This document shows, piece by piece, positions 6,706-46,658 of a stretch of DNA of 64,000 nt. The stretch is taken from positions 1 through 64,000 of IMG/VR virus record IMGVR_UViG_3300009604_004140. The stretch is one strand, 5' to 3'. A program made the position numbers and the translations under genes. The stretch's first letter is position 1. Every line of letters starts with the position of its first letter. The notes under the pieces were generated by a model. The model worked only from the letters and a program-made list of their open reading frames with translations, ran no database searches and was not told the DNA's origin. The stretch is from a virus.

Positions 6706-7468
6706 TTTCGCCTCCAGAGTCAAAGGATTTGCGCCAGTTGGAATCATAGCCGATCAGTTCGTCTTTAATGGATTCTGGCTTGCGCTGATATTCAGATAGT
6801 GACGAAAGAAGCATTCTTCCCTGTAGATTGCTTACGGATTTTATAGAGTTCACCCCAGAACAAACCTCTTTCACAAAACTAACCAAGTCAACATTCAGCC
6901 TTTTGCACATTTGATTAATGGCAAGTATCTGCTGATCCGTAATGTCTTCCTCGGACGCCATAACGTCATCTTCTGCCGAATTGTTCATCTCTTCGGCAGT
7001 TATAACTCTCAGCTTTAACGCCCTGCGTAACGCCTTGCCTTCGGCTCGGGTATCGGCAGTTGCCACCAAGTGATCATTAAACGGAAACGGCACCTTGTCA
7101 TATCTAACATCGACACATCCGTCTACAGTGACTATAGCGTCAGTTTCATACTTCCGTATCTTTATAGTATGCTTCATTGTACATCTGCGTCCAGCGGCAG
7201 AGGGTAGCTCCAAAACGTCGCTGCGTGACTCAAGAATCTCACCGTAAATTTTTTCGGTTACACGCCTAAGGCCATCTACAGTAGGATTACCTTCCCTAAG
7301 CTCTGTGTCGTGAAGGTTGTCTAGAACGTATTCGCTCCATTCTGGATCGGCGTCAGTGTATACTTTACGCTCTTCGTTGCTATCGTCTTCTTTAAATCCC
7401 TCATCCTCGTTAATAACAGAAACCATATCTTCAAACTCATTAAGGGCTTTGTCTGCTTTAGTATTCAT
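6695..7468 (-). CDS. Unknown phage protein, possibly linked to DNA annealing
   Basis: 257 residues, with an acidic N-terminus and a middle segment TADTRAEGKALRRALKL. That segment resembles the A-E-T-R-A-x-G-R-A-L motif found in several phage single-strand annealing or ssDNA-binding families. The remainder (a KVPFPFNDHL segment and a helical C-terminus) gives no clear match. Start overlaps the upstream stop as ATGA. The motif is suggestive only, and the gene sits away from the replication block, beside an endonuclease gene. Treat the recombination link as weak inference. Confidence 0.5.
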   Translation of the reverse strand: MNTKADKALNEFEDMVSVINEDEGFKEDDSNEERKVYTDADPEWSEYVLDNLHDTELREGNPTVDGLRRVTEKIYGEILESRSDVLELPSAAGRRCTMKHTIKIRKYETDAIVTVDGCVDVRYDKVPFPFNDHLVATADTRAEGKALRRALKLRVITAEEMNNSAEDDVMASEEDITDQQILAINQMCKRLNVDLVSFVKEVCSGVNSIKSVSNLQGRMLLSSLSEYQRKPESIKDELIGYDSNWRKSFDSGGENES

Positions 7469-8271
7469 AGTTCTATGTACCTTTTATTTTCCTTTGGAAA
7501 TTCCTTACCAATCTGATCCAAAATATTAAGTAAATCCTCTAAAATTTTTCTTAAATACCTCTGGGAAATCCTTTTTGTTTGTCGTATTCTAATCAAAACG
7601 AGACCCTGTCCCAAGATAAGACCCGTCTTCTCTAAATCGGTTTGTTGGTTCTTCGTTAGATTTTTTTCTCCCCACACCGGAGAAAAGTGAGATGGGCCAT
7701 CAACCTCTATGGCGGTTCGTAAGTCCTCTACGAAAAGATCTGTTTCTAACCTCTGATTTTTTAGCCAATGTTCCTTATGGAATTGTACCCTATAGTTTCT
7801 TGCTGTTAGTTCTTCAAGCAGAAATCTTTCCAGCTTTGATCCGGTTCTAGCGGCTTCCCTGATGGCGTCACTTCCTTTTCTAATTACTTCTTGCTTTTCT
7901 TTTTCTGTCTTTTTATTCCAAGATTCCTTCCCTGCCTCAGATCTTTTGGCTCTCTCTTCTTCACTAAGACTGTCCCATATTAATCCCTGACTTTCGCTAA
8001 TTTTTAGTTTAGTGTTCTCATTAAGCTTCTTTCCCTTTGTGGGATGAAGGGACCTTCCTTTTTTGAGGGCCTCTTTTTGCGCCCCGCTTTTACTTCTGGA
8101 TAGGATACCAAGCTTTTTTGCTTCCCTCCTAACCTTATTGGGATATGTATTTAGCATTTCAGCTATTTGAATCCAACTTAGCTTTTTATTACAATAAGCC
8201 TCTTTCAAAAGAGATCGTTTTTCATTTTCTTGAAGGCTCCAATAGTCTGAGAATTTATTTTTAATGTTCAT
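7465..8271 (-). CDS. HTH/NUMOD-like plus VSR-like endonuclease (possible homing nuclease)
   Basis: 268 residues; ATG preceded by GGGAG. Residues ~1-55 look like a helix-turn-helix (SWIQIAEMLNTYPNKVRREAKKLG). Residues ~75-100 match a NUMOD3-type DNA-binding strand (KGKKLNENTKLKIS). Residues ~145-240 carry a PD-(D/E)XK or VSR-like nuclease core: ETDLFVEDLRTAIEVDG, then SHFSPVWGE and a Q/D/K-rich helix. NUMOD repeats are typical of homing endonucleases, so this may be a free-standing mobile nuclease, although a general phage DNA-processing role is also possible. It separates the zinc genes from the glycosyltransferase cluster. Confidence 0.65.
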   Translation of the reverse strand: MNIKNKFSDYWSLQENEKRSLLKEAYCNKKLSWIQIAEMLNTYPNKVRREAKKLGILSRSKSGAQKEALKKGRSLHPTKGKKLNENTKLKISESQGLIWDSLSEEERAKRSEAGKESWNKKTEKEKQEVIRKGSDAIREAARTGSKLERFLLEELTARNYRVQFHKEHWLKNQRLETDLFVEDLRTAIEVDGPSHFSPVWGEKNLTKNQQTDLEKTGLILGQGLVLIRIRQTKRISQRYLRKILEDLLNILDQIGKEFPKENKRYIEL

Positions 8272-10626: not shown

Positions 10627-11432
10627 ATCTCTTCTATGTTCTTAAAATATTGTTCTGCCCCCGGCTCAAATTCTTTTAGCTTATCTTCTATATGGATACC
10701 AAAACAATTTCCAGCATGCTTTTTATGAAACATGGAATTGACCAACAATCCATTACCATCTTTGCGGGGATAGGCAAATATGGCATGTTTCATTTCGTCA
10801 ACGAAATAGCTTTGCACTTCGTCGCTAAATACAGATGGCACCCGCAACGGAGACTCAAATACAATATAAAACATTGGGTAGGCGATATACTTAGAAGAAT
10901 CAATGACAATATCAATCGCTCCCCTGTCCGTTAAGTCATTATCAAAAAAGGTCTGAAGCCTCCAAAGAGATTTCGGGTCTGGCTCACCTTCAATTTCTTT
11001 TATAAGTTCTGTGGGGACAAGTTTGGATCGATTTATTATCGTCAAAAGACATGGTGGTGTTCTTTGACTATTTAGACTTCCTATTGTCCCTAAAAGGCCT
11101 TCGATGGTATCGTTTTCTCTGAACATGACCATGGCATGATACTTTATCTTTAGTTGTTCTTCAACCATAGGTTTCCATTGATTTTTTGTATAGTCCTTGG
11201 CCCACTCTTTAGTCCTTTTATGCAAACAGACATGGTTGTTGATAACGAAAAATTCATTACCGAATTTATCATATGCCTCAATTACGTCACTGTCACCTTT
11301 GCTTTTATAAGATTCAATTTTATTGAAACTGCATCCGATTTGGGTTTGCGTTCTCTTGTCTTTTTCGGAAAAAATGCAATCTCCACAGGATGTGTGAAGA
11401 GGATGTATCGTTCGAGTCTCTTTATCTTTCAT
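10605..11432 (-). CDS. GT2-like glycosyltransferase with N-terminal Cys motif
   Basis: 275 residues; its start overlaps the upstream stop as ATGA. The first ~70 residues hold SCGDCIF, GCSF and a VCLH, a probable metal site. From about residue 95, HAMVMFRENDTIEGLLGTIGSLN resembles the start of a family 2 glycosyltransferase, where a strand is followed by a helix of repeated contacts, and IDIVIDSSKYIAYPMF may take the place of the DxD region. A clear DxD is lacking, so activity is uncertain. Phage glycosyltransferases with fused Cys clusters are common in this window. Confidence 0.5.
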   Translation of the reverse strand: MKDKETRTIHPLHTSCGDCIFSEKDKRTQTQIGCSFNKIESYKSKGDSDVIEAYDKFGNEFFVINNHVCLHKRTKEWAKDYTKNQWKPMVEEQLKIKYHAMVMFRENDTIEGLLGTIGSLNSQRTPPCLLTIINRSKLVPTELIKEIEGEPDPKSLWRLQTFFDNDLTDRGAIDIVIDSSKYIAYPMFYIVFESPLRVPSVFSDEVQSYFVDEMKHAIFAYPRKDGNGLLVNSMFHKKHAGNCFGIHIEDKLKEFEPGAEQYFKNIEEICPSLKM

Positions 11433-11845
11433 TGTCTTCGGGCCTCCACCAAATACCTAAAGCCTCCAATAGCAATCGTAGTTACACTCATCTCCATAGA
11501 AGCTAATTTATGTTTTAAATCATGGGCCGACGTAAGCCTCAGTCTGCCCCCCAATAAGTGCTCAGAAGCCCCAGAGAGATCCACCCTTCCTCCATCTGTC
11601 TCCCTTATGACTTGTATGGCGTCCGTTCCTGCTATTCTAATAAGGCCTCCGTGCCTAAGTTTTTGTAGAGCAACCGAGAGAATGTTGGGGTTCTCGTCAA
11701 ACTCTAAAACGTCTACAAGTTCTATTTCTTCATAAACAGCAGACGCTAACGATTCTAGGTCACTGCTTTTTATACATTCTATACCATGCGCTCCGTCTGA
11801 AAACGGAGAAGAAGATTTGCCTTCAACGTAGATAAGTGCTCGCAT
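11429..11845 (-). CDS. Methyltransferase-like domain protein
   Basis: 138 residues with AAGGAATTAAA before the ATG. The order of segments (VDVLEFDENP, VALQKLRHGGLIRIAGTD, a late TIAIGGFRYLVEARR) matches the C-terminal half of a class I SAM methyltransferase, where an LRPGG-like turn follows strand 5. The SAM-binding GxG motif is not visible, so it may be a degenerate or partial domain that works with a neighbour. It ends in ATGA coupling with the next gene. Confidence 0.4.
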   Translation of the reverse strand: MRALIYVEGKSSSPFSDGAHGIECIKSSDLESLASAVYEEIELVDVLEFDENPNILSVALQKLRHGGLIRIAGTDAIQVIRETDGGRVDLSGASEHLLGGRLRLTSAHDLKHKLASMEMSVTTIAIGGFRYLVEARRQ

Positions 11846-13906: not shown

Positions 13907-15540
13907 TACTTAAGCCTCCCATAAGCGTCTTCTATAAACTTCTCAGGGGGCAATTGTTGCTGTCCGCACCTTATCGCCTCCACTGTGGCCTTGTGCTTAA
14001 ATTTTGACACCATAATTTCCCAGAACATTTCTGGAGAAAAGTTTCCGTTTCCATTGACATTAGCCCCAAAATTAAGAGATTGTATAAATTCATTAGCCTC
14101 ATATGAGTATGCCCTCTCGGGCTCTTGAAGCATTTCTGCATATGACCACCTAACAAAATCTTCATGATTGTCAAACTCTGGCCGCGCAGAAGGGAGGTTT
14201 AGTTGGGCAGGAGGAGAGTCCCACTTTCCTTGCAAATTAACTGGCTTGTGGGATTCTATGCACCTATCCCAAACCTGTGCTGTTTGATCCCAGCCATATC
14301 TTGTCATAGCTCCCTTGCGAGACTCAAAGCATTTTCTATTCCTCTCTTTCTGGGGAAGGGAAAAGTGTTTTGAGATTATGCGTGCCAAGTGGTCATTGTC
14401 TGGATGGGCCCTGTCTGCTCCGGTTTCAAGCTCCCGGTAAAAACACTTGACTTCAATGGGATATCCTTTTGTAAATTTAATTACATCTGACATAGCACTA
14501 TAATCAACGGCTGCGACAGGAACCCCGCAACTTGCAGCTTCAACTTGGGGCATTCCAAAGCCTTCGCAGATAGCATACTGAACATATAGGTCAAAGAGAT
14601 TGTATACCTGTATAAGATCTGGAATAGATAGTCCGCTGCCTACGCTTGGCATAACGGCACTTCTATTTTTACAATATTTACATGCCGTTATTGCGTCTTG
14701 GAAAATTGAAACAAAAAATTTATTGCAATGGCGACAAATATAAGTAGTAAGCACTTTTGAAGTAAGGCCATGTTCCAAAATGCCTTCTGCAATGTTCCAT
14801 CCCTGTGGTTCCGGGTAGCTTGTATGCAAATAAAGGAATGTTTTTTTTGCAATAGCAGGTGGTGATTCGTCTAGGAAGATCCTAAAGGACTTCATGAGTT
14901 CTATAAATAGCTTACGCTTTTGGTTTCGCATCACGGTTCCAACTATATTTATATCTGGGTCCAGACCAAAAGACGATTTATGCTGTGCTTTGCTGGCAAC
15001 AGGCTTGTATACATTAGGGTCTATGGCGGGAGACGCACAACCCAGAATATTTAAGGTGTCATTTGATTGTTCTCGAAGAGTTTCCTCTCCAAATTCTGAG
15101 TATGCCAAAAGAGCATCGCACTCAGAAAATGTTTGAAGCCATTTTCTTTGTTGCGGAGCAGAATCTACTGTTGGCATCCATATCCAATGAAAATAAGGCC
15201 TTAAGGGGGAGTTGGAAATCCAATCATCCATCCAAGGGTCTCGGTAGGTTAAAACAACATCGGGCTTAAAGCTTAATACCACCTTATCAAATCTCCAGAA
15301 CCCAAAATGGTTGGCTGGATTTTGAGAAAATTGCGCTTGCTCTTCTTCATTGGTAGGGGAATTAGAGAAATATAACCAGCTTACGTCATCCAGTTTGTCT
15401 GGATTTCCATAGCTCGCAAACTCTGCCAACTCATATTTGTTGGTTTTTGCTAGTCGCGGTAGTACCTGTTTGGCGTATGTTCCGAAGCCCGAAGCGAGGT
15501 TGTGGCATTCTGTTACGAACAGAACTCTTTTCTTAGGCAT
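13906..15540 (-). CDS. Large GT4 glycosyltransferase with inserted zinc finger
   Basis: 544 residues; AAAGGAATATT before the ATG. N-terminal RVLFVTECHNLASGFGTYAK is the GT4 acceptor-lobe loop. The donor lobe shows IPDLIQVYNLFDLYVQYAICEGFGMPQVEAASCGVPVAA, the classic E-x7-E pattern. Between the lobes is an insert with two Cys pairs (CRHC and CKYC, 20 residues apart), a probable zinc finger not found in ordinary GT4 enzymes. About 140 residues follow the GT domain. The form is common in large phages, probably for glycan addition to virion proteins or DNA bases, but the acceptor is unknown. Confidence 0.8.
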   Translation of the reverse strand: MPKKRVLFVTECHNLASGFGTYAKQVLPRLAKTNKYELAEFASYGNPDKLDDVSWLYFSNSPTNEEEQAQFSQNPANHFGFWRFDKVVLSFKPDVVLTYRDPWMDDWISNSPLRPYFHWIWMPTVDSAPQQRKWLQTFSECDALLAYSEFGEETLREQSNDTLNILGCASPAIDPNVYKPVASKAQHKSSFGLDPDINIVGTVMRNQKRKLFIELMKSFRIFLDESPPAIAKKTFLYLHTSYPEPQGWNIAEGILEHGLTSKVLTTYICRHCNKFFVSIFQDAITACKYCKNRSAVMPSVGSGLSIPDLIQVYNLFDLYVQYAICEGFGMPQVEAASCGVPVAAVDYSAMSDVIKFTKGYPIEVKCFYRELETGADRAHPDNDHLARIISKHFSLPQKERNRKCFESRKGAMTRYGWDQTAQVWDRCIESHKPVNLQGKWDSPPAQLNLPSARPEFDNHEDFVRWSYAEMLQEPERAYSYEANEFIQSLNFGANVNGNGNFSPEMFWEIMVSKFKHKATVEAIRCGQQQLPPEKFIEDAYGRLK

Positions 15541-15982
15541 AATATTCCTTTAGTTTTTTAATGGCTTTATAAAATACGCGCTTAACATAAGAGCTTTTTC
15601 TTCCAGATATTTCCGCCATTTCCGCAAGCTTATAACCCATCCGACGAAGGTCTAGGAGAAGCACCTCTTCTTCTGAAAAAGAGGGGGGTATTATTTCCCA
15701 GAACTCCTCTGAGTTAAGATAAGAGGGCACTTGTGCGTGAGGGAGAGGCTTATACCGATTCTTTTTTAGGGACTTGATTTCTTTTATAATTTCCCACCGT
15801 ATTGGATTCCATGCGTATGTTGACAATACAGCTCCCTTTGTGCTGTCGTATTTTTTAAGGGCTTTCCATAGACCTATGCGTCCTGCCTGAACGTAGTCTT
15901 CTCTTTCTGTTGGATTCTGTGGCTTAAAGGAGTTGACTACAGCAACCACAAGGCCCATGTTTTCCTCTATTAATTCATTCAT
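15533..15982 (-). CDS. Phage RNA polymerase sigma factor (sigma-70 family)
   Basis: The longest frame starts at a GTG (15988), but the ATG at 15982 has AAGGTG in place and is chosen (149 residues). Region 2 is visible as LVVAVVNSF, then DYVQAGRIGLWKALKKYD and FSTYAW-like LSTYAWNPIRWEI, the -10 binding helix. Region 4 is LRRMGYKLAEMAEISGRKSSYVKRVFYKAIKKL, a helix-turn-helix. The short length and lack of region 1 place it near group 3/phage sigma factors. It probably directs host RNA polymerase to phage promoters. A TATAAT lies just upstream. Confidence 0.8.
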   Translation of the reverse strand: MNELIEENMGLVVAVVNSFKPQNPTEREDYVQAGRIGLWKALKKYDSTKGAVLSTYAWNPIRWEIIKEIKSLKKNRYKPLPHAQVPSYLNSEEFWEIIPPSFSEEEVLLLDLRRMGYKLAEMAEISGRKSSYVKRVFYKAIKKLKEYYA

Positions 15983-15992
15983 TCTCACCTTT

Positions 15993-16012: not shown

Positions 16013-17653
16013 CTAACTTGTTAGCTGTTCAACTTTTTTTATCAAAAAACTTCCTCGTTTTTTATCTCTGATGCCCCTAAGAAGCACAGTGTTTCCTTCG
16101 TAAAGCATTTTTTTAAATTTATCCCACTCTTCCGAGAACGCAGTTACATTGTCCAAAGAGCAGGAGATGTCACTTACAGTAATAAATCCCATTTGCATTC
16201 CCGCAGACCTACCCTTTTTTATAGTCCACTCTCGAACAGAGTCTATCTGGACTCCCATAGCAATGCCATTCTGAGAATTAAAGCCATCTATAAATTCCTT
16301 ACAGGTGCAGGTTGCTTTGCTGGTATCGTATTCGTCCACCTTGTTGCATGTAAGCGAAATGCCGAGAAGCTCCTCTTCCTTTTTTGCAACCCATGAGGGG
16401 GAATCGTACAGTTCGTATCCCGGATTATTATAGGCTGCCAAAAGGCCCTCCACGTTTGGTATACGGGATTGCCTGAATATGGGGCGATCTCTAGAAGTAG
16501 CTTTTGATGCCTCGACCATCTGCTTAATGGCATCCTTGACACTCACTGCTGGATGGGCTACCTTGTAATCTCTCAGCCATTCTGTCTCTCTTTTGGTAAA
16601 CTCTTTAATAGTGCTAAAATGGTGTTGCATCCTAGATCGTGAAATTTTAAAGCAATCAAAAGAACCGGATAATATTAGTGACTCAAAGGCTTTTTTGTTA
16701 ACGAAAGGAGACACCCTCAACAGAAAGCAGTCCCAATCGCACTTATGTAAATCAATATTGTTTTCATTTATGTCCCTTAACATTTTTTTAAAAACAGAAG
16801 AGCCGACATGTTTAATGTTAGTAATCCCATAGGTTGGGTGCTTCCCTATTAGCTGGAACTCTTCATTCATATGTAATATGTTGGGCGGCATAATTTCTAT
16901 TCCCATAATCTTTGCGTTATTAACAAGCTCATGAACTTCCCAATATGTGTCGGGCTTTCCGATGGCATGCTTAAGGTACGAAGTGAAAAATTCGTGAGGG
17001 AAGTGTGCTTTCGTGTAGGCGGTTAGATATGCGTTGTAGGCATAGCTAATAGCATGCGACTTGTTGAAGGAATATCTTTGAGATTTTTCGATCCAACTAA
17101 ATATCTCTTCGGCTTGCTCTCTAGTAACGATTCCTTTACTAGCTGATTTCTCTAGGAAAGATTTTTTTACTTGGGCCATTACCCCGGCCTTCTTCTTTCC
17201 AATAGCCTTGCGTAGAATGTCAGCTTCCTGTAGATCAAATCCCGCTATTTCTGTGGCAATCAAAATGGCCTGTTCTTGATAAACCAAGATCCCGTAGGTG
17301 CTTTTGAGAATGGGTTCTAGTGAATCGTGAAAATATTCAACATTCTCCTCCCCTGATTTCCTGTCAATATAATGCTGCGTAAGACTTTTCCCTCTTACCA
17401 TTGCTTCAAGGCAGCCGGGCCTCATGATTGCGACAAGATCAGAAAGTTCTTCAATATTTTTAGGTTTCGCTTGGCTAGCTAAAGATCGTCCGAGCTGTGA
17501 TTCTAGTTGAAAGACCCCCTTGGTATTTCCTTCACATATAAGATCCCATGTTGCGTAACAATCAAGGGGAAGTTTAGTAATGTCTGGATTATATATGGTG
17601 TGCCCATCAGGAGACATATCAAATGAGCATCCGCACTTAAAATCTCTGGTCAT
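16013..17653 (-). CDS. dnaE: DNA polymerase III alpha, C-terminal half (separate protein)
   Basis: 546 residues that continue DnaE exactly where the 18697-20556 protein stops. After ~45 novel residues comes GVFQLES, then AIMRPGCLEAMV, GILVYQEQAILIA (fingers), RKAIGKKK and FNKSHAISYAYNAYLTAY, all standard Pol III alpha blocks. A helix-hairpin region follows, and an OB-fold-like end at ~440-546. It lacks the three catalytic aspartates, which are on the other half, so both proteins must assemble. No intein sequence is present. The start overlaps the exonuclease stop. QueF-like and exonuclease genes lie between the halves. Confidence 0.9.
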   Translation of the reverse strand: MTRDFKCGCSFDMSPDGHTIYNPDITKLPLDCYATWDLICEGNTKGVFQLESQLGRSLASQAKPKNIEELSDLVAIMRPGCLEAMVRGKSLTQHYIDRKSGEENVEYFHDSLEPILKSTYGILVYQEQAILIATEIAGFDLQEADILRKAIGKKKAGVMAQVKKSFLEKSASKGIVTREQAEEIFSWIEKSQRYSFNKSHAISYAYNAYLTAYTKAHFPHEFFTSYLKHAIGKPDTYWEVHELVNNAKIMGIEIMPPNILHMNEEFQLIGKHPTYGITNIKHVGSSVFKKMLRDINENNIDLHKCDWDCFLLRVSPFVNKKAFESLILSGSFDCFKISRSRMQHHFSTIKEFTKRETEWLRDYKVAHPAVSVKDAIKQMVEASKATSRDRPIFRQSRIPNVEGLLAAYNNPGYELYDSPSWVAKKEEELLGISLTCNKVDEYDTSKATCTCKEFIDGFNSQNGIAMGVQIDSVREWTIKKGRSAGMQMGFITVSDISCSLDNVTAFSEEWDKFKKMLYEGNTVLLRGIRDKKRGSFLIKKVEQLTS

Positions 17654-18321
17654 TTAGAGAATGCCCCTTTGAACTTATCCACGCTAGACTGACGACGATG
17701 GAATTTCATAAATTTTACCATAAGCTCTGCTTCGTCGATTGTATCAGAAAGGGCTTCATGGGCTTGTGCTGATCGCATTCCAAAAAACTTTCTGAAAGCA
17801 TCAAGCTTCATGCTGCTTGGCTCCGATAAATTTTCAAACCACATAAAAAGAATATCCATCATGTCAATTTTACTTACTTCAGAGAAAGGAAGTTTTGTGT
17901 CATACTTTTTTGCAAGCCTCCTTGCAATCGGTAAGTCAAAATTAACGATATTGTAGCCAGACGGTATTGGTTCAACAAACCACTGTCCGGCTTTCTTGTC
18001 AACTTCATATTTAGAACAATAGCTACAAAAGTTCTTCCAAACAATCTTTTCGCTTTGGCCTTCTTTCCATGCTGCCACTATTTCTTTTGTATCAACCCCA
18101 CGCTGCTTGGCGTGCCATGCTATTGTATCTTGTCGTTCCTTTGTAAAATATTCTTCATCATCTATGCCGTCAGGCTTAATGGTTGCCTGAAACGCCTGCT
18201 CTGTTTTGATTTCAAGAGTGCGAGGGTCTACAGGAACAGCCGCGAGTTCAACGGGATTACATTCGTTTGGATTGGGACTATCTGTTTCCCAGTCAAATAC
18301 CATTATCCATCTGTTATTCAT
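17650..18321 (-). CDS. dnaQ: DnaQ-like 3'-5' exonuclease (proofreading)
   Basis: 223 residues. Exo I is FDWETDSP (the D-x-E pair), Exo II is GYNIVNFDLPIARR, and Exo III is HEALSDTIDEAELM, giving a DEDDh active site. It sits between the two halves of Pol III alpha and overlaps both the upstream and downstream gene by 4 bases. It therefore probably serves as the epsilon-like proofreading subunit of the phage polymerase. There is no extended C-terminal tail with a beta-clamp motif that I can identify. Confidence 0.85.
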   Translation of the reverse strand: MNNRWIMVFDWETDSPNPNECNPVELAAVPVDPRTLEIKTEQAFQATIKPDGIDDEEYFTKERQDTIAWHAKQRGVDTKEIVAAWKEGQSEKIVWKNFCSYCSKYEVDKKAGQWFVEPIPSGYNIVNFDLPIARRLAKKYDTKLPFSEVSKIDMMDILFMWFENLSEPSSMKLDAFRKFFGMRSAQAHEALSDTIDEAELMVKFMKFHRRQSSVDKFKGAFSK

Positions 18322-18692
18322 AACGATTCCCTTGTCTGTCTGTGTAGCGAACTAACCCTAAGTCTAGAAGAGATGCCTCCGCGAGGTCTAAATTCTACTT
18401 CTATGGAAAGCTCTAATGGTTTATAAATTTCCATAACATGGTCGTATATTATATTTATGAATCTTTCATACGATAAAAAGGAGTTTCGAAAGCTGTAAAC
18501 ATATTTCTTAAACGACTTGAGTTCAATTACCGTATCAGAAGGAACCATAAATAGATCTACACACCCGAAGTCAGGTTGCTCTTCTTCTCCCAGAAAGGTA
18601 AGCTCTGGACAGGTAATGCTAATTTCATATCTTTTATCTGACGGATTTCTAATAGACTTTAGCGTTTGCTTATCGCCCCACTTCTTATTCAT
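18318..18692 (-). CDS. QueF-like T-fold protein lacking the catalytic cysteine
   Basis: 124 residues. The tunnel-fold QueF (preQ0 reductase) pattern is clear: ITCPELTFLG, EQPDFG (residues 39-43), ELKSFKKYVYSFRN (57-70), a SYERF with the conserved Glu, and RPRGGISS near the end. In QueF enzymes the substrate thioimide is made by a Cys in an SLCP-type motif about ten residues before PDF. Here that place reads FLGEEEQPDF, with no Cys; Cys28 and Cys44 are elsewhere. The Asp of QPDF is kept. So it probably binds 7-deazaguanine-like ligands but may not reduce preQ0. Location inside the split polymerase operon suggests a link to DNA modification. Confidence 0.75.
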   Translation of the reverse strand: MNKKWGDKQTLKSIRNPSDKRYEISITCPELTFLGEEEQPDFGCVDLFMVPSDTVIELKSFKKYVYSFRNSFLSYERFINIIYDHVMEIYKPLELSIEVEFRPRGGISSRLRVSSLHRQTRESL

Positions 18693-18696
18693 GGTA

Positions 18697-20556
18697 TTAT
18701 ACCCCCGCTAGTATAGAAGGGACTTCCATAATCTTGTCAAGCATTTTAATACCAAGCACATCGAGCTTTAAAAGCCCTACGTCCTCACAGCTTGGGCCTT
18801 CAAAGCCAGCTAAAAGATCCTTTTCTTCTCGGTCAAGCACCATTGGGCAAACGTTGCGAATGGGCTGCGGTGAGATAACTATGCCAGCGGCATGCTTAGA
18901 CTGAATTATTTTTGTGCCCTCTAGTCTCATTGCTTGCTCAAACACACGAGCAAAGGGCCCCTCCAGCTTTCCGTCAGTTCCTATTTCACACCATTCCTTT
19001 AGCTTGTCGGCCTTGTTTTCCAACGCCCACCATACAATAGAAGAAGTCCCAAGCTCGTCTTTCATGTCCTGTAGTTCGTCAGTAATTTTTGATTCATCTA
19101 AAATGTGAGATGTGATGGCATTTTGTTCATCGAAACCGATATTGCCTCTGGCTGACATCACTCTTTTGAGAGAGGCCCTGCCTTTTAGCGTCTGGAAAGT
19201 GACAATCTGGGCAACGTTATCGTTCCCGTAGCGATCCCTGATGTATTCCATAATGTTCGCCCGAGCGTGCTTTGGGACATCAATGTCTATATCAGGCATT
19301 GAAACGTGCCCTCCTGCATTACGACCCGCATTGTAAAACCTTTCAAAGATTAAACTGTGTGGAATAGGATCAATTTGCGTTATATCCATTAGATATGAAA
19401 CCATACAGCCAGCGGCACTCCCACGCCCCGGACCAGTTAGATAGCCTGATTCTTTTGAATACCGCAAGATATCTTGTACGATAAGAAAGTAGCTAGAAAG
19501 TCCTGCTTCTGTAATGGTGGAAATTTCTTTATCGACCCTTTCCCCATATTCAGAAAATCTCTCGTGCCCCTTTCCTATGTGGCCCATTTTGCGTGTCCAG
19601 CCTTCCCGACATATATGTCTCAGGTGGTCGTTGGGAGGGATGTCTTTTGGACAGCCAAAGACGGGGGGATTGGGAGGGCCCAGTATGTCATAAGAATTGC
19701 ATGCTTCCGATATCAATACAGTATTGTGAAGCTCTTCTTCCGTATGAAACTCCTTCATCTCTTCATAGGTTGGAATGTGATAATTGTTTGATTCGAAAAA
19801 CGACTTTAGCGAAACACATTTTCCTTCTTTTATTTCTCCTTGAACCTGTGACACGCTTTTCCGAAGTGCTGTGCAAAGAAGCACCCTTTGATCGTGAGCA
19901 TCTTCTTTCCTACAATAATGTGCGTCGGGGGTAGCAACACAGGGAATTCCTGTAATTTTAGAAATCTCTCGTAGTTTTTCTGCCACTTCTTTTGCCAATG
20001 TATTTTGCAGAGAATCAATTAACTGTATTTCAATAAAGAAATTTCCGTTGCCAAATATTTCCTGCATGTATTCGGCCTCTTTGGTAGCGTCTTTTTGCCA
20101 GTCTGGATTATCCACAACCGCAGAGGCAAGGCGTGATCCCAAATGCCCACTAAAAGATATAAGATCAGACGTTTCGTGAGACGAAATCTGCTCTACATCA
20201 AGCCGGGGCTTATGGTAAAAATTGTTTGGATGGTTGGCTTGAGAAACCAGAGATAGTAGATTCTTCCATCCCTTTAAATTTTTTGCTAAAACGACCTGAT
20301 GCCTGAGCTTCCTATTTGAGGGGTCTTTGATAGAAGCAGAATCGTCGCACAGATAAAGCTCGCACCCTATTATAGACTTAAAGGAAGCGCCAACCGTTTT
20401 TTGAAAATCAACAGCCCCAGACACTGTTCCATGATCAGTTAATGCACAGGCAGGGCTTTCAATTTCTTCAAGACGACCCGCTATATGCTTTGTCTGAGAA
20501 AGGCCGTCTAATAAAGAGTATTCACTGTGTACGTGAAGAGGAACATAGAAGCCCAT
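18697..20556 (-). CDS. dnaE: DNA polymerase III alpha, N-terminal half with PHP domain
   Basis: 619 residues; AGGAGAAGG before the ATG. The PHP domain is intact (HVHSEYSLLDG at 8-18, TDHGTVSG, GCELY, PDAHY near 210). The palm follows: GPGRGSAAG near 374, the catalytic pair in PDIDID near 420, and the third Asp in LKLDVLG near 597. The protein then ends about 20 residues later, just before the fingers, which are encoded at 16013-17653. Together the halves make about 1165 residues, a normal DnaE length. The break is clean, with no frameshift and no intein. It is the first gene of the group that includes QueF-like and DnaQ. Confidence 0.92.
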   Translation of the reverse strand: MGFYVPLHVHSEYSLLDGLSQTKHIAGRLEEIESPACALTDHGTVSGAVDFQKTVGASFKSIIGCELYLCDDSASIKDPSNRKLRHQVVLAKNLKGWKNLLSLVSQANHPNNFYHKPRLDVEQISSHETSDLISFSGHLGSRLASAVVDNPDWQKDATKEAEYMQEIFGNGNFFIEIQLIDSLQNTLAKEVAEKLREISKITGIPCVATPDAHYCRKEDAHDQRVLLCTALRKSVSQVQGEIKEGKCVSLKSFFESNNYHIPTYEEMKEFHTEEELHNTVLISEACNSYDILGPPNPPVFGCPKDIPPNDHLRHICREGWTRKMGHIGKGHERFSEYGERVDKEISTITEAGLSSYFLIVQDILRYSKESGYLTGPGRGSAAGCMVSYLMDITQIDPIPHSLIFERFYNAGRNAGGHVSMPDIDIDVPKHARANIMEYIRDRYGNDNVAQIVTFQTLKGRASLKRVMSARGNIGFDEQNAITSHILDESKITDELQDMKDELGTSSIVWWALENKADKLKEWCEIGTDGKLEGPFARVFEQAMRLEGTKIIQSKHAAGIVISPQPIRNVCPMVLDREEKDLLAGFEGPSCEDVGLLKLDVLGIKMLDKIMEVPSILAGV

Positions 20557-21047
20557 TACCTTCTCCTAAATTTTCGCAACTCCGAAATAGCAACATTGTG
20601 GCAGTCAGCGCGCACAATAAAGCCATTAGAGGGATCGATCTGTCCTTTGGTAAGTTTTTTTGATTTCTGAAAATATTCTTCATGCGTTAGCCATCCTAAG
20701 AGCCAAGCCCTTCCCCACCTTCCGTTTTTAAATTCTACCCTAACAAATGCGTACCTGTCGCACTTTTGTTTGGTATTAAAGTTGGCAACAGAGCACTCAT
20801 AGTTGGGCTTCGGGGCAGATGTACACCTTTTAGTTTTCACATCATACTTAATTCCGCTTTTGGAAGTTATGTCATAGTCATAGGTGTTATTTACTGTCCC
20901 GTCTATCAGGGAGTTTGCAATCTCTTCTCCTATAAAGCCTGCTATATTGCCCCCACCCTTCATAATAGAATTGTGTATGACGCCCATCTCGCGTGCCTTC
21001 CTCCACGCCCGATTTTTCATTTCTTTAGTTATTTCAATTTCTATCAT
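20556..21047 (-). CDS. PD-(D/E)XK-type nuclease-like protein
   Basis: 163 residues, CGGAG before the ATG. A GFIGEEIANSL helix is followed by YDYDITSKSGIKYDVKTKR, the E...D...(D/E)xK arrangement of a restriction-like nuclease, and an AFVRVEF strand. Small proteins of this kind are common in large phages, with presumed roles in DNA processing. It lies between the polymerase and a RecB/Cas4-like nuclease and overlaps both by a few bases. Confidence 0.65.
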   Translation of the reverse strand: MIEIEITKEMKNRAWRKAREMGVIHNSIMKGGGNIAGFIGEEIANSLIDGTVNNTYDYDITSKSGIKYDVKTKRCTSAPKPNYECSVANFNTKQKCDRYAFVRVEFKNGRWGRAWLLGWLTHEEYFQKSKKLTKGQIDPSNGFIVRADCHNVAISELRKFRRR

Positions 21048-26527: not shown

Positions 26528-27011
26528 GTCGCCTACCGGCCTTGGCCTTTTGTAGATTTATAAAAAGGTCTGCCAGATTTTTAATCGAGCTTGCTATATA
26601 GGTAAGCCTATCGGCTCTTTGCTGGGCATACTTTTTGATGGATAAAAGCTTTCGGGTGTAATCGTTGTCTTTAATGGCTTGATAGTATTGGCTATCCCAC
26701 GAACCGGAGTATTGATTCTCTCTTCCGGAGGTTGTAGATTTTATTGAAGTTTCTGCCCACCGAACGCGAGCAAGTTCGCGGTTGTGAGATCGTTGAATAT
26801 GAAAAGAGAGACTGCCCAAGAGAAGGGATGCCTCGGCGCACTCTTCAAGAGTTAGCTTTTCTATGGACGTTCGATCCATTTGCATGTATTTATGAACAGA
26901 CGGATCATGAAAGTCGGCAGAATAAAGGGGAAGCCCAACGCTGGATTCGTATTCGTCTAAGATGGAGTCCAGTTTGACTAATTGTTCCGTTGCAGCACTC
27001 GGCTTTTCCAC
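26520..27011 (-). CDS. Helical protein, possible recombination accessory
   Basis: 163 residues from a GTG with AAGGTAGAAGA upstream; overlaps its neighbour by 34 bases. Helices dominate: EECAEASLLLGSLSFHIQRS, RELARVRWAETSI, and a long C-terminal stretch QRADRLTYIASSIKNLADLF. It sits close to the UvsX-like recombinase, where T4-like phages keep the mediator UvsY, and the helical plan is loosely similar. Sequence similarity to UvsY is not evident to me, so this remains a positional guess. Confidence 0.5.
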   Translation of the reverse strand: MEKPSAATEQLVKLDSILDEYESSVGLPLYSADFHDPSVHKYMQMDRTSIEKLTLEECAEASLLLGSLSFHIQRSHNRELARVRWAETSIKSTTSGRENQYSGSWDSQYYQAIKDNDYTRKLLSIKKYAQQRADRLTYIASSIKNLADLFINLQKAKAGRRHE

Positions 27012-27394
27012 TCTTCTACCTTTTCATCAAAAGGAAGCTCCACACATGTAATATTATTATACTCGCACCATTCCCTTTTGCGAGCATCTCTTTTTTTTTG
27101 ATGAGCAAAGTCCTGTGCGGATGTGTGAAATAAGGGATTAAATTTATAGTGTTGCTCTCCGTGAACTTCTACTACTAATTTGAGGGTGTTAATATAAAAA
27201 TCAAAAAAGAGTTTCTCGTTTCTTGTAATTGGTACGGTCACCTCTTCTAAAATCTGAACTGTGGGAAAAAGCCCAATGAGTAGGTCTTTTGCTGCCAGAT
27301 GTAGCTTGGAGCGGGGCCTTCTATCGTTTGCTTTTGTCACATACCCCTGTAGCTTCCAGTTATGGATTTCATTGTTCAAGTCTCTGATCTTCAC
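26978..27394 (-). CDS. VSR/DUF559-like endonuclease
   Basis: 138 residues from a GTG overlapping the recombinase stop (GTGA). The core is FFDFYINTLKLVVEVHGEQHY, where D and E-x-H/Q residues match the compact PD-(D/E)XK nucleases of the VSR and DUF559 type. KKRDARKREWCEYNNITCVELP follows in the standard order. The RSKLHLAAKDLL start is also usual. The neighbouring recombinase suggests a role in processing recombination intermediates; a different enzyme of this type is encoded at 7465-8271. Confidence 0.65.
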   Translation of the reverse strand: MKIRDLNNEIHNWKLQGYVTKANDRRPRSKLHLAAKDLLIGLFPTVQILEEVTVPITRNEKLFFDFYINTLKLVVEVHGEQHYKFNPLFHTSAQDFAHQKKRDARKREWCEYNNITCVELPFDEKVEEWKSRVLQRNN

Positions 27395-30594: not shown

Positions 30595-31551
30595 TTAATT
30601 AATGCCCATGCTTTGGTTAGTTTTATTTATACTTTCGTGAGCTGGCCCTAGGCCGGATACGGCCCTTATCGCATCAATATTTTCTGGAACAACATCACTT
30701 TCCTGATGAATGGCTTGTATATACATCAGTTTGTTGCCCCATACTCCAATGGTGTCGCTCCAAACGCACACTTCTGGCATGTCACCCCTGCTCCGGCCAA
30801 GGTCTTTGGCGTATTCCATAATCTCGGCTGTCGATCTTATGCCGTCAACATTATGTACAACGCGAACTCTTGTTGTGTTCTTGAATAGACTTACAATCTC
30901 GTCAATAGTAGGTGTGGTTTGGAGATCAACAGTAATGCTGTGCATATGCATTAATGTGGTGGGAACAGATATAGAGGTAGTAAATATCTCCAAGCTGGGC
31001 ATTACCGTTCTTACGTCTGGACCATGATGAGACGGAACCACCAAGTGCGGCACAAGGGCATTAATGGGTCCATGATATATGTCCCAAGGGTCAGCGGCCC
31101 TTCTGATCATTGTGGCGTGTACTTTGTCTATTAAATAATTATCATCTAAAGCTTTCAGTGTTCTGCATAGTCCCGTTGTATTACAGCTAACCACACGGAG
31201 GAATTTAGAACAGGCAACGTCAGCATAGTTGCATTGGGCAACAAAACTAGGGGCCACCTCTGGCTTTTCTCCTCCTTGAAAGACGGCCTTTATATCCATG
31301 TCTTCATATGTTCTTTTGTTACTCGCCCCGATTCCTTTGGGAGTGCAATCCACGACTACATCAATTTTATCGAGAAGGTGATGCAGCTTTTTTATCGGAA
31401 ATATAGGAATGTCTTTTCTTTCAGCGGCTTCTATCTTATAATTATAGGTATTTGCAGTAACACCTATTAGCTCCATATCGTCTTGTAGCAATACAGCGTC
31501 GGCTACACGCTTTCCTATTGTTCCATACCCAACCACTCCGACTTTAATCAT
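30595..31551 (-). CDS. Archaeal-type (type II) glyceraldehyde-3-phosphate dehydrogenase-like enzyme
   Basis: The longer frame (31608) runs into the previous gene; MIKVGVVGYG at 31551 is the natural start, 318 residues. GYGTIGKRVADAV is the NAD(P)-binding loop. VDCTPKGIGASN, FQGGEKPEVAPSF and VVSCNTTGLCR (catalytic Cys near residue 121) follow, then MIRRAADP, GPINAL and VPSHHGPDV and TTLMHMHS. This order is characteristic of type II GAPDH of archaea, not of the common bacterial GapA. It interconverts glyceraldehyde 3-phosphate and 1,3-bisphosphoglycerate using NAD(P). In phages such an enzyme is very unusual. Neighbours give no pathway; a host-derived or transferred gene is likely. Confidence 0.85.
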   Translation of the reverse strand: MIKVGVVGYGTIGKRVADAVLLQDDMELIGVTANTYNYKIEAAERKDIPIFPIKKLHHLLDKIDVVVDCTPKGIGASNKRTYEDMDIKAVFQGGEKPEVAPSFVAQCNYADVACSKFLRVVSCNTTGLCRTLKALDDNYLIDKVHATMIRRAADPWDIYHGPINALVPHLVVPSHHGPDVRTVMPSLEIFTTSISVPTTLMHMHSITVDLQTTPTIDEIVSLFKNTTRVRVVHNVDGIRSTAEIMEYAKDLGRSRGDMPEVCVWSDTIGVWGNKLMYIQAIHQESDVVPENIDAIRAVSGLGPAHESINKTNQSMGIN

Positions 31552-31558
31552 ACATGTC

Positions 31559-31762
31559 TCACGATTTAAGAGGCCAAAAAACATGACCGCACAGAACACC
31601 AATTGCAAAAGATATTATAGGGTGTTCACAGGATATTGCATATATTGCATAACTAATTGTGGCATTTAAATCTTTAGCAAAAAACATAACCGCAACATCC
31701 CATATGAAGATGGTGCAAAAGACAAGGATAACTAAAAATTTAGTAACATTTAAAAAGTCCAT
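31559..31762 (-). CDS. Small two-segment membrane protein
   Basis: The start overlaps the previous stop (TAATG), giving 67 residues. Two hydrophobic segments are visible (FLVILVFCTIFIWDVAVMFF and IISFAIGVLCGHVFW) around a short polar loop. No known holin motif. It could be an inner-membrane protein of unknown function; pairing with the next gene is likely. Confidence 0.6.
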   Translation of the reverse strand: MDFLNVTKFLVILVFCTIFIWDVAVMFFAKDLNATISYAIYAISCEHPIISFAIGVLCGHVFWPLKS

Positions 31763-32786: not shown

Positions 32787-32937
32787 CAGAGCCTCTTGCT
32801 GGCACAAGAATTCGTCCATTCTTTCTATACAAACCTTTTCTTTTATAATAATAAATCTCCCCAGTCTTGGGGTCTTCATACGCATAGTAACGCTTAGATT
32901 TTACATATTCAAAAATAGCTTTTATATATTTATTCAT
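32776..32937 (-). CDS. 53-residue basic hypothetical protein
   Basis: ATG overlaps the DUF1501 stop (TAATG), and the gene ends 11 bases into the Fe-S carrier gene. The sequence is basic and tyrosine-rich (FEYVKSKRYYAYEDPKTGEIYYYKRKGLY). Its beta-hairpin look (DPKTGEIYYYK) resembles small WW-like or RNA-binding modules but no family fits. Real because of the tight coupling on both sides. Confidence 0.6.
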   Translation of the reverse strand: MNKYIKAIFEYVKSKRYYAYEDPKTGEIYYYKRKGLYRKNGRILVPARGSDDN

Positions 32938-34187
32938 TATAAAATTACCTTCGCTTCACCTTCTAGTAAGTATCGTGGACGACCACCATTGTCTACTCTT
33001 TGAATATTCTTAGAAATTCCAAAGTGATCAAACATGGTGGCAGCTACGTCGATAGGCCCAAAGGGACTTTCAGATGGGGTATAGGACTTGTCGGCCTTCC
33101 CTACAACCCTGCCGCTGTCATATCTTCCACCCGACATAAGCATTGTGGAAATCGAGGGCCAATGATCGCGGCCCGCATTGGCGTTAAGTTTGGTACGGCC
33201 AAATTCACCAGTGACAATCAAGAGAATCTTTTCATTAAGACCTCTTTGCTGCACGTCTTCTACAAAAGCCGCAAGAGCTTTGTCTATAGGGGGAACTCTT
33301 CCCTTAAGTGCGTTTGCGATGTTGCTATGCATGTCCCAACCACCATAATTGATAGTAACAAACCTTGTGCCAAACTGACATAAGCGGCGAGCCAATAGCA
33401 ACTGCTTTCCAATCGCCGTATCTCCATAGGCTTCTTTTGTTTTGGGGTCTTCTTTATCCAAATTGAATGCGTCTTTGGCTGTTCCAAGGATTACGTCAAA
33501 TGCCTGCTGATTGAATTTTGTAACAGAGTCTGCTGATGGACTAGGAATATTAACACCTTCAAGTGATTTTAATAGTTCATTCCTATTTGCGAATCTCTCA
33601 ATGTCTACTCTGGGCGTTAGGTTATCTTTGTTTGAAGGGTCGAAGGGTTTGTATGCTCCGCCCAACCACGCTGGATCTTCACCTTCTATCCTGCCCTGTT
33701 TAACATATGTAGGAACTCCGTTTTTGGGGTTGTTGGCACCATAGACAGCAGACACGATAGACCCATGAGATGGGAACATAGAGTTAGATGTTTGACTTCG
33801 TTCTTTGTTGTGATGGGAAGTCATGACCCAGTGCGTAGCCTGTCTGTGAGAAGAGTCTCCGTGAGTAAAGGAGTCTACAACGTTGAGGCTGGGAGCTTGC
33901 TTGATTAGATTTTGCCAATGAGAACCAAAAGCCATTCCGGTTGGCTTGTCCACCAAAGCGCCACCCACAGACCTGTATTCAGAAGGAACGCTATCCTCTT
34001 TTGGGGCGTGGAATGTTTCAAATTGTGTCGGACCTCCCCCCAGCCATACCCACACGACAGAGCTATCTTTAAGTTCTTGCGCCTCTTCCTGACCCATAGC
34101 AATATCAGAAAGCCCTAGAGAGGACATCCCTGCCCCAATACTGCCTATCCTTAGAAAGTCACGTCTGTTTGAATAAAAGTCAAGCAT
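32937..34187 (-). CDS. DUF1501 protein with Tat signal (planctomycete hallmark)
   Basis: A GTG at 34193 is in frame, but the ATG at 34187 has GGAGAGTGAAA spacing and is chosen (416 residues). NRRDFLRIG followed by a hydrophobic stretch is a twin-arginine export signal. DUF1501 features are VWLGGGPTQFETF, GGWDMHSN, and VTGEFGRTKLNANAGRDHWP with metal-binding Asp/His. DUF1501 proteins belong to the alkaline-phosphatase/sulfatase superfamily and occur in very many copies in Planctomycetota genomes, usually beside DUF1549/DUF1553 partners; none is here. The phage copy would be exported during infection. Substrate unknown. Host-derived is likely. Confidence 0.88.
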   Translation of the reverse strand: MLDFYSNRRDFLRIGSIGAGMSSLGLSDIAMGQEEAQELKDSSVVWVWLGGGPTQFETFHAPKEDSVPSEYRSVGGALVDKPTGMAFGSHWQNLIKQAPSLNVVDSFTHGDSSHRQATHWVMTSHHNKERSQTSNSMFPSHGSIVSAVYGANNPKNGVPTYVKQGRIEGEDPAWLGGAYKPFDPSNKDNLTPRVDIERFANRNELLKSLEGVNIPSPSADSVTKFNQQAFDVILGTAKDAFNLDKEDPKTKEAYGDTAIGKQLLLARRLCQFGTRFVTINYGGWDMHSNIANALKGRVPPIDKALAAFVEDVQQRGLNEKILLIVTGEFGRTKLNANAGRDHWPSISTMLMSGGRYDSGRVVGKADKSYTPSESPFGPIDVAATMFDHFGISKNIQRVDNGGRPRYLLEGEAKVIL

Positions 34188-34213
34188 TTTCACTCTCCTC
34201 GGTAAATGTTATT

Positions 34214-43116: not shown

Positions 43117-43743
43117 CTATTTTTTACCATAAAGGAGTTGGATTTTTTCAATGTCGTCTGCCCGTGGCTTTAAGGCATCATTGATATAGGGGTGCATAAG
43201 AGCTGTTTCATCTTCGGAATGGTACAACCCTAGCAAATGCCCTATTTCGTGGGCAGCAACTGTTCTTAGGATTATTCCACGCTTTTCCTCCGGGAGTATC
43301 CAGTTCTCCGCTAAATCAAAGACGGTGAGTAGCTGTCCGTCAAAGTTAAGGTACGGCGGCATTTGGGCCCATGCCAAAATATCTCCGCTTTTGCCAAATC
43401 CTAATTTGCGGCGGCGACTAACGCCAATTATAAAGTCTGCTTCCCTTTGGGAATCAACTTGCGAAAAGGCGAGGGGGCATACCTCCGACCAAGACTCGAA
43501 CGCTAGCTTAAATTGGGAGTCCCAAATTTCTGAATCCATGTCGTGAGTGTCACGACCCAACATAAAATATGTTAAATGGTTTTTGCCCCACTTATAGGGT
43601 TGGATTAGTTTTTTGTTATGGCCCCCCACACCACACCAACAGCGGGGGATTCTTGTGGCTCCGTTAGTGGTCTCTGTGGAAAAACCAAGGGCGCTTGCTG
43701 CCGCCCCATACAATAAAACATTTCGTCGAGATATAAGATTCAT
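43117..43743 (-). CDS. Tat-exported matrixin-like metalloprotease
   Basis: 208 residues. SRRNVLLYGAAASALGFS is a twin-arginine signal. The mature part has the M10 matrixin fold: LTYFMLGRD, WDSQFKLAFESWSEVCPLAF (the SQV-like strand to the substrate cleft), and the zinc site HEIGHLLGLYHS near residue 163, followed by the Met-turn ALMHPYI and the C-terminal DDIEKIQLLYGKK. Secreted zinc endopeptidase. It could degrade host surface or extracellular proteins. No haemopexin domain. A terminator bounds each side. Confidence 0.85.
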   Translation of the reverse strand: MNLISRRNVLLYGAAASALGFSTETTNGATRIPRCWCGVGGHNKKLIQPYKWGKNHLTYFMLGRDTHDMDSEIWDSQFKLAFESWSEVCPLAFSQVDSQREADFIIGVSRRRKLGFGKSGDILAWAQMPPYLNFDGQLLTVFDLAENWILPEEKRGIILRTVAAHEIGHLLGLYHSEDETALMHPYINDALKPRADDIEKIQLLYGKK

Positions 43744-46297: not shown

Positions 46298-46319
46298 TTG
46301 GATTTCCTTTTTTTATAAG

Positions 46320-46658
46320 TGGAGGCGGCGGGATTCGAACCCGCGTGCTGCCATGCTTCCATAACCGCTTCTACATGGTTAGTTTATTGTATTTGCACAA
46401 CAAACAAAGCTATCCGATTATCGGAGTCAGGGTTGCATACAACCATCAGAGATATAGATCGAGTATCTCCTTTCTCTATTCGAGTTATCGAAGTCAACAC
46501 AATTTGGTAAAAGGGCTTGTGTGGCCCCCGCAGCTTAAGCTGCCATTGCTAAACTAGGTTCGGCAAGTAAAAATTTAGTCAACTTTTATAGTGGCCCGTT
46601 GACCAACCACTCCATGCAACTATTATTTCCACATTCAGTCGATGCCAAATTCGCCCCC
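46320..46658 (-). ncRNA. ssrA: tmRNA (ssrA), one-piece
   Basis: Read on the minus strand. The 5' end is GGGGGCG-AATTTGGCATCGACT, the tmRNA start; the 3' end is GCGGGTTCGAATCCCGC (T arm) then CGCCTCC plus A. The 7-base acceptor stem pairs fully (one G-U). No CCA is encoded. Between the ends is an open reading frame for the tag, GCC-GAA-CCT-AGT-TTA-GCA-ATG-GCA-GCT-TAA, giving AEPSLAMAA. The remainder forms stems consistent with pseudoknots. About 339 bases, a usual size. It rescues stalled ribosomes and tags their products for degradation. Tagging by a phage copy may be selective. Confidence 0.88.
46535..46564 (-). other. tmRNA tag-peptide reading frame (AEPSLAMAA)
   Basis: Likely resume codon GCC at 46562-46564, stop TAA at 46535-46537. 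The tag ends in a hydrophobic Leu-Ala-Met-Ala-Ala like bacterial proteolysis tags (usually -LAA or -LAMAA type). The exact resume codon is inferred from frame and usual tag length. Confidence 0.75.

Follow-up and report, generated by a model that had tools for sequence, protein, structure and literature searches.

The window analysed here, 64,000 bases of the IMG/VR viral record IMGVR_UViG_3300009604_004140 (65,157 bases in full), carries on its minus strand a DNA polymerase III (Pol III) alpha subunit that is made as two proteins, with other genes lying between the two coding sequences. The first gene, alpha-N (18697-20556), encodes a protein of 619 amino acids (aa) with the PHP domain and the palm, whereas the second, alpha-C (16013-17653), encodes a 546 aa protein with the fingers, HHH and OB parts. 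The gap between them is occupied by a QueF-II-like gene of the preQ1 synthase family (18318-18692, 124 aa) and by a gene for a DEDDh 3'-5' exonuclease (17650-18321, 223 aa), which is epsilon/DnaQ-like and was recognised as RNase_T by Pfam and by its motifs. A preliminary description of this stretch had proposed that the polymerase was divided in this manner, and the open reading frames (ORFs) were indeed found exactly at these positions, with their domains confirmed by Pfam and NCBIfam. Alpha-N matches PHP (E=4.8e-33) and DNA_pol3_alpha (E=1.8e-68), the latter to its end, and alpha-C matches DNA_pol3_finger (E=6e-46) and HHH_6 (E=7e-10). The gene packing around both halves is operon-like, the stop codon of the exonuclease and the start codon of alpha-C overlap in an ATGA, and a purine-rich, Shine-Dalgarno-like stretch precedes each start in the operon.

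When the two halves are placed on the NCBIfam model PRK05673 (1146 positions), alpha-N covers positions 6-568 and alpha-C positions 583-1052, leaving unmatched only the short linker between palm and fingers and the C-terminal tail after 1052. Solved Pol III alpha chains likewise align to alpha-N and alpha-C over adjoining parts. The catalytic aspartates all reside in alpha-N (D422 and D424 of the PDIDID motif and D599 of KLD) and are invariant in the 19 sequences aligned, and the protein ends 20 residues past D599, as expected from the preliminary description, which had set the break just after the third catalytic aspartate. The cut site thus corresponds to the palm-fingers linker, which is 25-26 residues long in 30 full-length enzymes, and the fingers motifs GNTKG-FQLES, RPGC, QEQ, LRKAIGKK and RYSFNKSH are present in alpha-C. 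Taken together, the two chains hold the complete domain set of a C-family DnaE/Pol III alpha (PHP, palm with DxD and third Asp, fingers, HHH and OB), which in the window is spread over two polypeptides instead of one. They do not correspond to a PolC-type enzyme, in which the exonuclease is inserted in the PHP domain of one chain, since the exonuclease is here a separate gene, and PolC models match far worse than DnaE models. Alpha-C begins with a short leader containing cysteines, of which C7, C9 and C32 are invariant in our alignment A1. We considered this CxC...C motif as a general joiner of the halves and dropped the idea, given that the strict pattern is found in only 116 of 171 loci and that in some clades alpha-C begins almost directly at the fingers.

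In order to evaluate how widespread the split is, relatives were collected by five viral scans, two with single proteins of the window and three with profiles (of the C half, of the N half and of a divergent C-half set), and every locus collected from the IMG/VR scans was surveyed with hidden Markov models (HMMs). The same split, which the preliminary description had suggested looking for in other phages, was recovered throughout a large viral clade, in 243 loci with both halves (171-172 of them distinct by sequence). In all 243 the N half is followed by the exonuclease and then by the C half, with the three genes on one strand, and no locus has the halves fused, although distant fused members may be under-sampled by scans that rely on the family's own motifs. 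Only one of the halves is present in a further 28 loci, and the ones that we inspected break off at a contig end or close to it. The gut record MT838122, a single fragment, had been a candidate for a lone C half and was rejected because its C half is fused to a palm. As a control we took 83 DnaE loci of bacteria or phages, of which 80 consist of a single ORF, the three exceptions being a truncated stretch, a broken Serratia phage gene (L058) and a bacterial metagenome-assembled genome (MAG; L212) with a single in-frame TAA. This last stop codon (L212, 4447-4449) lies in the same palm-fingers linker, so that the site matches that of the split, and is probably a sequencing error, as the coverage stated in the contig name is about 1x. 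The same split is carried by two contigs from MAGs, one labelled Lokiarchaeota and the other Flavobacteriales (L137 and L138), which are probably phage contigs that were binned with cells.

The exonuclease is the constant occupant of the gap. Its residues D10, E12, D129, H188 and D193 are invariant in 15 sequences and make up the DEDD plus His motif, and the strict DEDDh pattern was found in 143 of 172 loci. Of the two genes that the preliminary description had noted between the halves, both present in the window, the exonuclease therefore recurs in every locus with both halves, whereas no QueF match was found in any of the 53 first relatives. We accordingly rejected the QueF-like gene as part of the polymerase system, and it is an incidental occupant of the gap; its match to TIGR03139 (86.1 bits) lies just below the cut-off of 86.9, and a QueF-II-like preQ1 synthase in a polymerase operon could possibly relate to 7-deazaguanine metabolism or DNA modification. 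Depending on the locus, the halves lie about 0.7 to 6.8 kilobases (kb) apart, because additional genes are present in some loci and missing from others, chiefly in the interval from alpha-N to the exonuclease, and these include QueF, a zinc-ribbon ORF, a conserved ORF of about 60 aa and metabolic genes. At that position we observed a zinc-ribbon protein in some nearer relatives (L011, 9874-9987), in more distant relatives a protein of about 58-67 aa with no hit in Pfam (L034, 7459-7641, and equivalents), and a 6-kb metabolic cassette (L092, 1186-7338) whose ORFs, judged by eye, are aldehyde dehydrogenase, aminotransferase and nucleotide-sugar dehydrogenase-like. In 15 loci (L306, L313, L316, L323-L326, L330, L333, L334, L346, L359, L362, L364 and L365) the PHP domain of the N half is shortened by about 80-90 residues (HMM positions 68 to about 215), which points to a degenerating PHP next to the exonuclease gene.

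In trees built separately for the N part and the C part (61 split and 28 full-length rows), the split loci stand on one side of a single branch in both cases, with a Shimodaira-Hasegawa-like approximate likelihood ratio test (SH-aLRT) value of 100 each. The split loci are thus monophyletic and one origin of the split is the simplest reading, while the sister group of the clade is not settled given the quick tree method and the long branches. The ratio of nonsynonymous to synonymous substitution rates (dN/dS) between the window and its near relatives, to which we confined the estimate as farther pairs were saturated, is 0.038-0.043 for alpha-N, 0.029-0.052 for the exonuclease and 0.048 for alpha-C, and all three are under strong purifying selection. 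The split polymerase is real, old and widespread in a large phage lineage.

In 23 records of 65-230 kb, the two-gene Pol III alpha is the only detectable DNA polymerase. No match to PolA, PolB or a beta clamp was found in these records, and each has one palm and one fingers domain, except a 206-kb record (G003; IMG/VR 3300024358_000009) with two split sets. The second of these sets (L366, 9162-12154) is about 80% identical to the first, so that two related phages may be joined in this record. The record of the window (65,157 bases) yielded no second palm or fingers domain, and a full-length DnaE elsewhere in it, which would have called the preliminary description into question, was looked for without success. 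The window also encodes a DnaB-type helicase, a Toprim primase-like protein, a PD-(D/E)XK nuclease, a UvsX/RecA-like protein, a ribonucleotide reductase and a deoxynucleoside monophosphate kinase.

AlphaFold models were made of alpha-N and alpha-C, each as a single chain. Alpha-N on its own is predicted to fold as PHP plus palm, with a predicted TM-score (pTM) of 0.76 and TM-scores of up to 0.74 (to E. coli alpha, 2hnh). For alpha-C alone the pTM is 0.48; the HHH and OB parts are modelled well, the fingers stretches 39-106 and 193-209 fall below 50 in the predicted local distance difference test (pLDDT), and the structures that match best (15 at E<=0.001) belong without exception to C-family polymerases, with low TM-scores.

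Two other ways of obtaining a polymerase from these genes would join the halves into a single chain. A split intein could do so by protein trans-splicing, as in cyanobacterial DnaE, and inteins do occur in this gene family: in L040 an in-frame cis intein with an HNH domain (10990-11730) lies inside alpha-C at RPG|C, and in L366 alpha-C is cut again at FNK|SH by a split intein with matches to TIGR01445 and TIGR01443 over their cut-offs, a free-standing nuclease gene lying between the alpha-C pieces. The same Pfam and NCBIfam libraries that detected these inteins gave no intein or Hint match in either half of the window polymerase. Over about 170 loci, moreover, the N halves continue for only 11-39 residues (median 17) after the third-Asp motif and the C-half leaders measure 6-52 residues (median 34), so that no N part of an intein would fit, and the palm-fingers break has neither feature of the L040 and L366 inteins and falls in a variable linker, whereas these two sit at conserved motifs. 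We therefore rejected an intein at the junction and found no pair of intein N and C parts flanking the break, and trans-splicing of the window proteins seems very improbable to us; that the split originated as an intein fracture from which the intein was later lost is possible. Joining could also take place at expression, through RNA splicing of an intron or ribosome bypassing, and introns in phage polymerase genes are well known (discussed for split PolA in PMC10580990). No Rfam intron was found in the window region, even at E<=1, which led us to discard an intron there. In addition, the exonuclease gene in the gap is conserved, under selection and equipped with a start of its own, the length of the gap varies several-fold with unrelated extra genes, and the C half has its own start codon and Shine-Dalgarno-like sequence. 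We thus give very little credence to this explanation, and the statement in the preliminary description that neither an intein nor a frameshift lies at the boundary agrees with our results.

It could also be argued that the two proteins do not form one polymerase and have other roles, for instance as competitors or partners of the host DnaE, with the phage using the host replicase, since no phage beta clamp was seen and the halves could in principle pair with host domains. We regard this as unlikely, given that both halves retain their catalytic motifs at identities as low as about 42-47%, that both genes are always present together and that the phage has its own helicase, primase-like protein and exonuclease beside them. 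The last alternative, a recent mutation or an assembly artefact in this contig, finds some parallel in the single in-frame stops or broken genes of other DnaE records, such as the L212 MAG and the L058 Serratia phage, and is nonetheless close to inconceivable: the same split in about 170 distinct, monophyletic loci with dN/dS near 0.04 is neither an assembly nor a chance effect.

We therefore consider it quite probable that the window encodes the phage's own replicative polymerase, a two-chain, non-covalently assembled C-family replicase with dedicated proofreading. No trace of splicing could be detected, so that the halves probably function through mutual binding. Alpha-N would hold the catalytic metals and alpha-C would be the nucleotide- and template-binding half, and the active site would be rebuilt by non-covalent binding of the two where palm and fingers meet, a boundary that in full-length enzymes consists of just a linker of about 26 residues. 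By analogy with epsilon, the exonuclease probably acts as the proofreading subunit and would dock on the PHP domain. The fixed gene order and the overlapping stop and start codons would lead to coupled, near-equal synthesis and perhaps to co-translational assembly of alpha-N, then the exonuclease, then alpha-C, and processivity would come from a host clamp, which we propose because no clamp was found in the phage. The low-confidence fingers in the alpha-C model fit what is expected of a chain that needs its palm partner.

Several points weigh against a two-chain replicase of this kind. The support for assembly consists of sequence data and single-chain models, and the low fingers pLDDT may only reflect the 18 sequences in the alpha-C alignment. 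Pairwise distances of the N half, the C half and the exonuclease correlate at 0.93-0.94 among 61 representatives, which speaks for shared inheritance and is no proof of contact since co-inheritance is expected of genes in one genome. We recognised by eye no canonical clamp-binding motif in alpha-C, and the lack of another polymerase is not absolute, since the records may be fragments and a second polymerase could lie in a missing part.

A bolder and rather doubtful extension of the two-chain replicase is that its core might be an obligatory three-chain machine of alpha-N, exonuclease and alpha-C, assembled in gene order, in which the active site would be closed by the fingers chain only once the exonuclease has docked on the PHP domain of alpha-N, and in which the two-chain state would be an old and stable trait of a large phage lineage and not a passing step. 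If true, separate fingers would allow polymerisation to be controlled or renewed by exchanging one chain, and we know of no bacterial Pol III controlled in this way. A natural C-family replicative polymerase working as two chains would open to testing the questions of whether the Pol III alpha fingers can exist as a separate, exchangeable subunit and of how epsilon joins the polymerase core, and a split polymerase could be designed without inteins on the basis of the natural breakpoint. The split also marks a large uncultured phage lineage, and where annotation presupposes a single dnaE gene, the fingers gene can be overlooked or given a wrong label.

On the same strand, the operon is flanked directly upstream of alpha-N by an unassigned gene (20556-21047, 163 aa), which is found upstream of alpha-N in nearer relatives as well, and directly downstream of alpha-C by a gene for a sigma-70 region 2 protein (15533-15988), a conserved neighbour in these nearer relatives. 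Elsewhere on the minus strand of the window we observed a complete transfer-messenger RNA gene (46317-46658; Rfam RF00023, 96.9 bits) that was missed by ARAGORN and of which one frame gives a likely tag ending in AEPSLAMAA. Also on this strand are genes for a glyceraldehyde-3-phosphate dehydrogenase-like protein (30595-31608; Gp_dh_C, E=6e-27), a Matrixin-type metallopeptidase (43117-43743; Peptidase_M10, E=3e-31) and a DUF1501 protein (32937-34193; E=6e-61), the first two being of note in a viral record, as well as homing or HNH endonuclease-like genes (26978-27394 and 7465-8271), one of them near replication genes. In one relative (L102, 5581-6564) an ORF judged by eye to be DUF1559-like and prepilin-type lies between the exonuclease and alpha-C. 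The DUF1501 and DUF1559-like ORFs are presumably a hint of planctomycete-like hosts, for which a search of papers gave no support.

Compared with full-length Pol III alpha from E. coli (2hnh), Thermus (2hpi) and M. tuberculosis (7pu7), the window polymerase has the same domain order (PHP, palm, fingers, HHH, OB) and the same catalytic motifs, with 26-31% identity of the N half in structural alignments, and it differs in being encoded by two genes, in lacking the C-terminal tail and in having an exonuclease gene between the halves. In a survey of bacteria, the only cases mentioned are cyanobacterial splits with inteins and fragmented genes (PMC3919608). Phage Pol III alpha in split form has been described before (PMC7824862, PMC7302621), and what is new here is the split site, the clade and the order with the exonuclease in the middle; we found no description of a palm|fingers cut with the exonuclease fixed between the halves in the open-access literature, although it may have been noticed earlier elsewhere. 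In group 2.2 jumbo phages, a minimal Pol III alpha core is split into two proteins that were proposed to reconstitute one enzyme, the cut separating the NTP-binding from the Mg/template-binding subdomains; this version lacks the other Pol III domains, its genes lie at a distance from each other, and the phages additionally have a family B polymerase (Iyer et al. 2021, PMC7824862). In contrast, the window polymerase keeps PHP, HHH and OB, its genes are clustered with the exonuclease, and no PolB was detected in the 23 long records. Microbacterium cluster EF phages have two DnaE genes (PMC7302621), and in the Microbacterium phage Poultress (gp55/56, L055) we found DnaE cut between PHP and palm in adjacent genes, with a similar adjacent pair in the Gordonia phage Suzy (gp64/65, L056), so that DnaE is in two ORFs in these phages too, whereas the window cut lies between palm and fingers and has other genes inside it. 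Other polymerase families offer parallels with two ORFs and a gene between them, namely the split family A polymerase of OM43 phages (PMC10580990), with an intron or intein suspected in split PolA and PolB cases, and the split family B polymerase with an intein in jumbo phage MIJ3 (PMC6892783). Finally, the cyanobacterial split DnaE and other fractured genes also consist of two separated genes and rejoin their products by split inteins, of which the window has none, and L366 represents such an intein fracture as an extra, third cut within the split clade.
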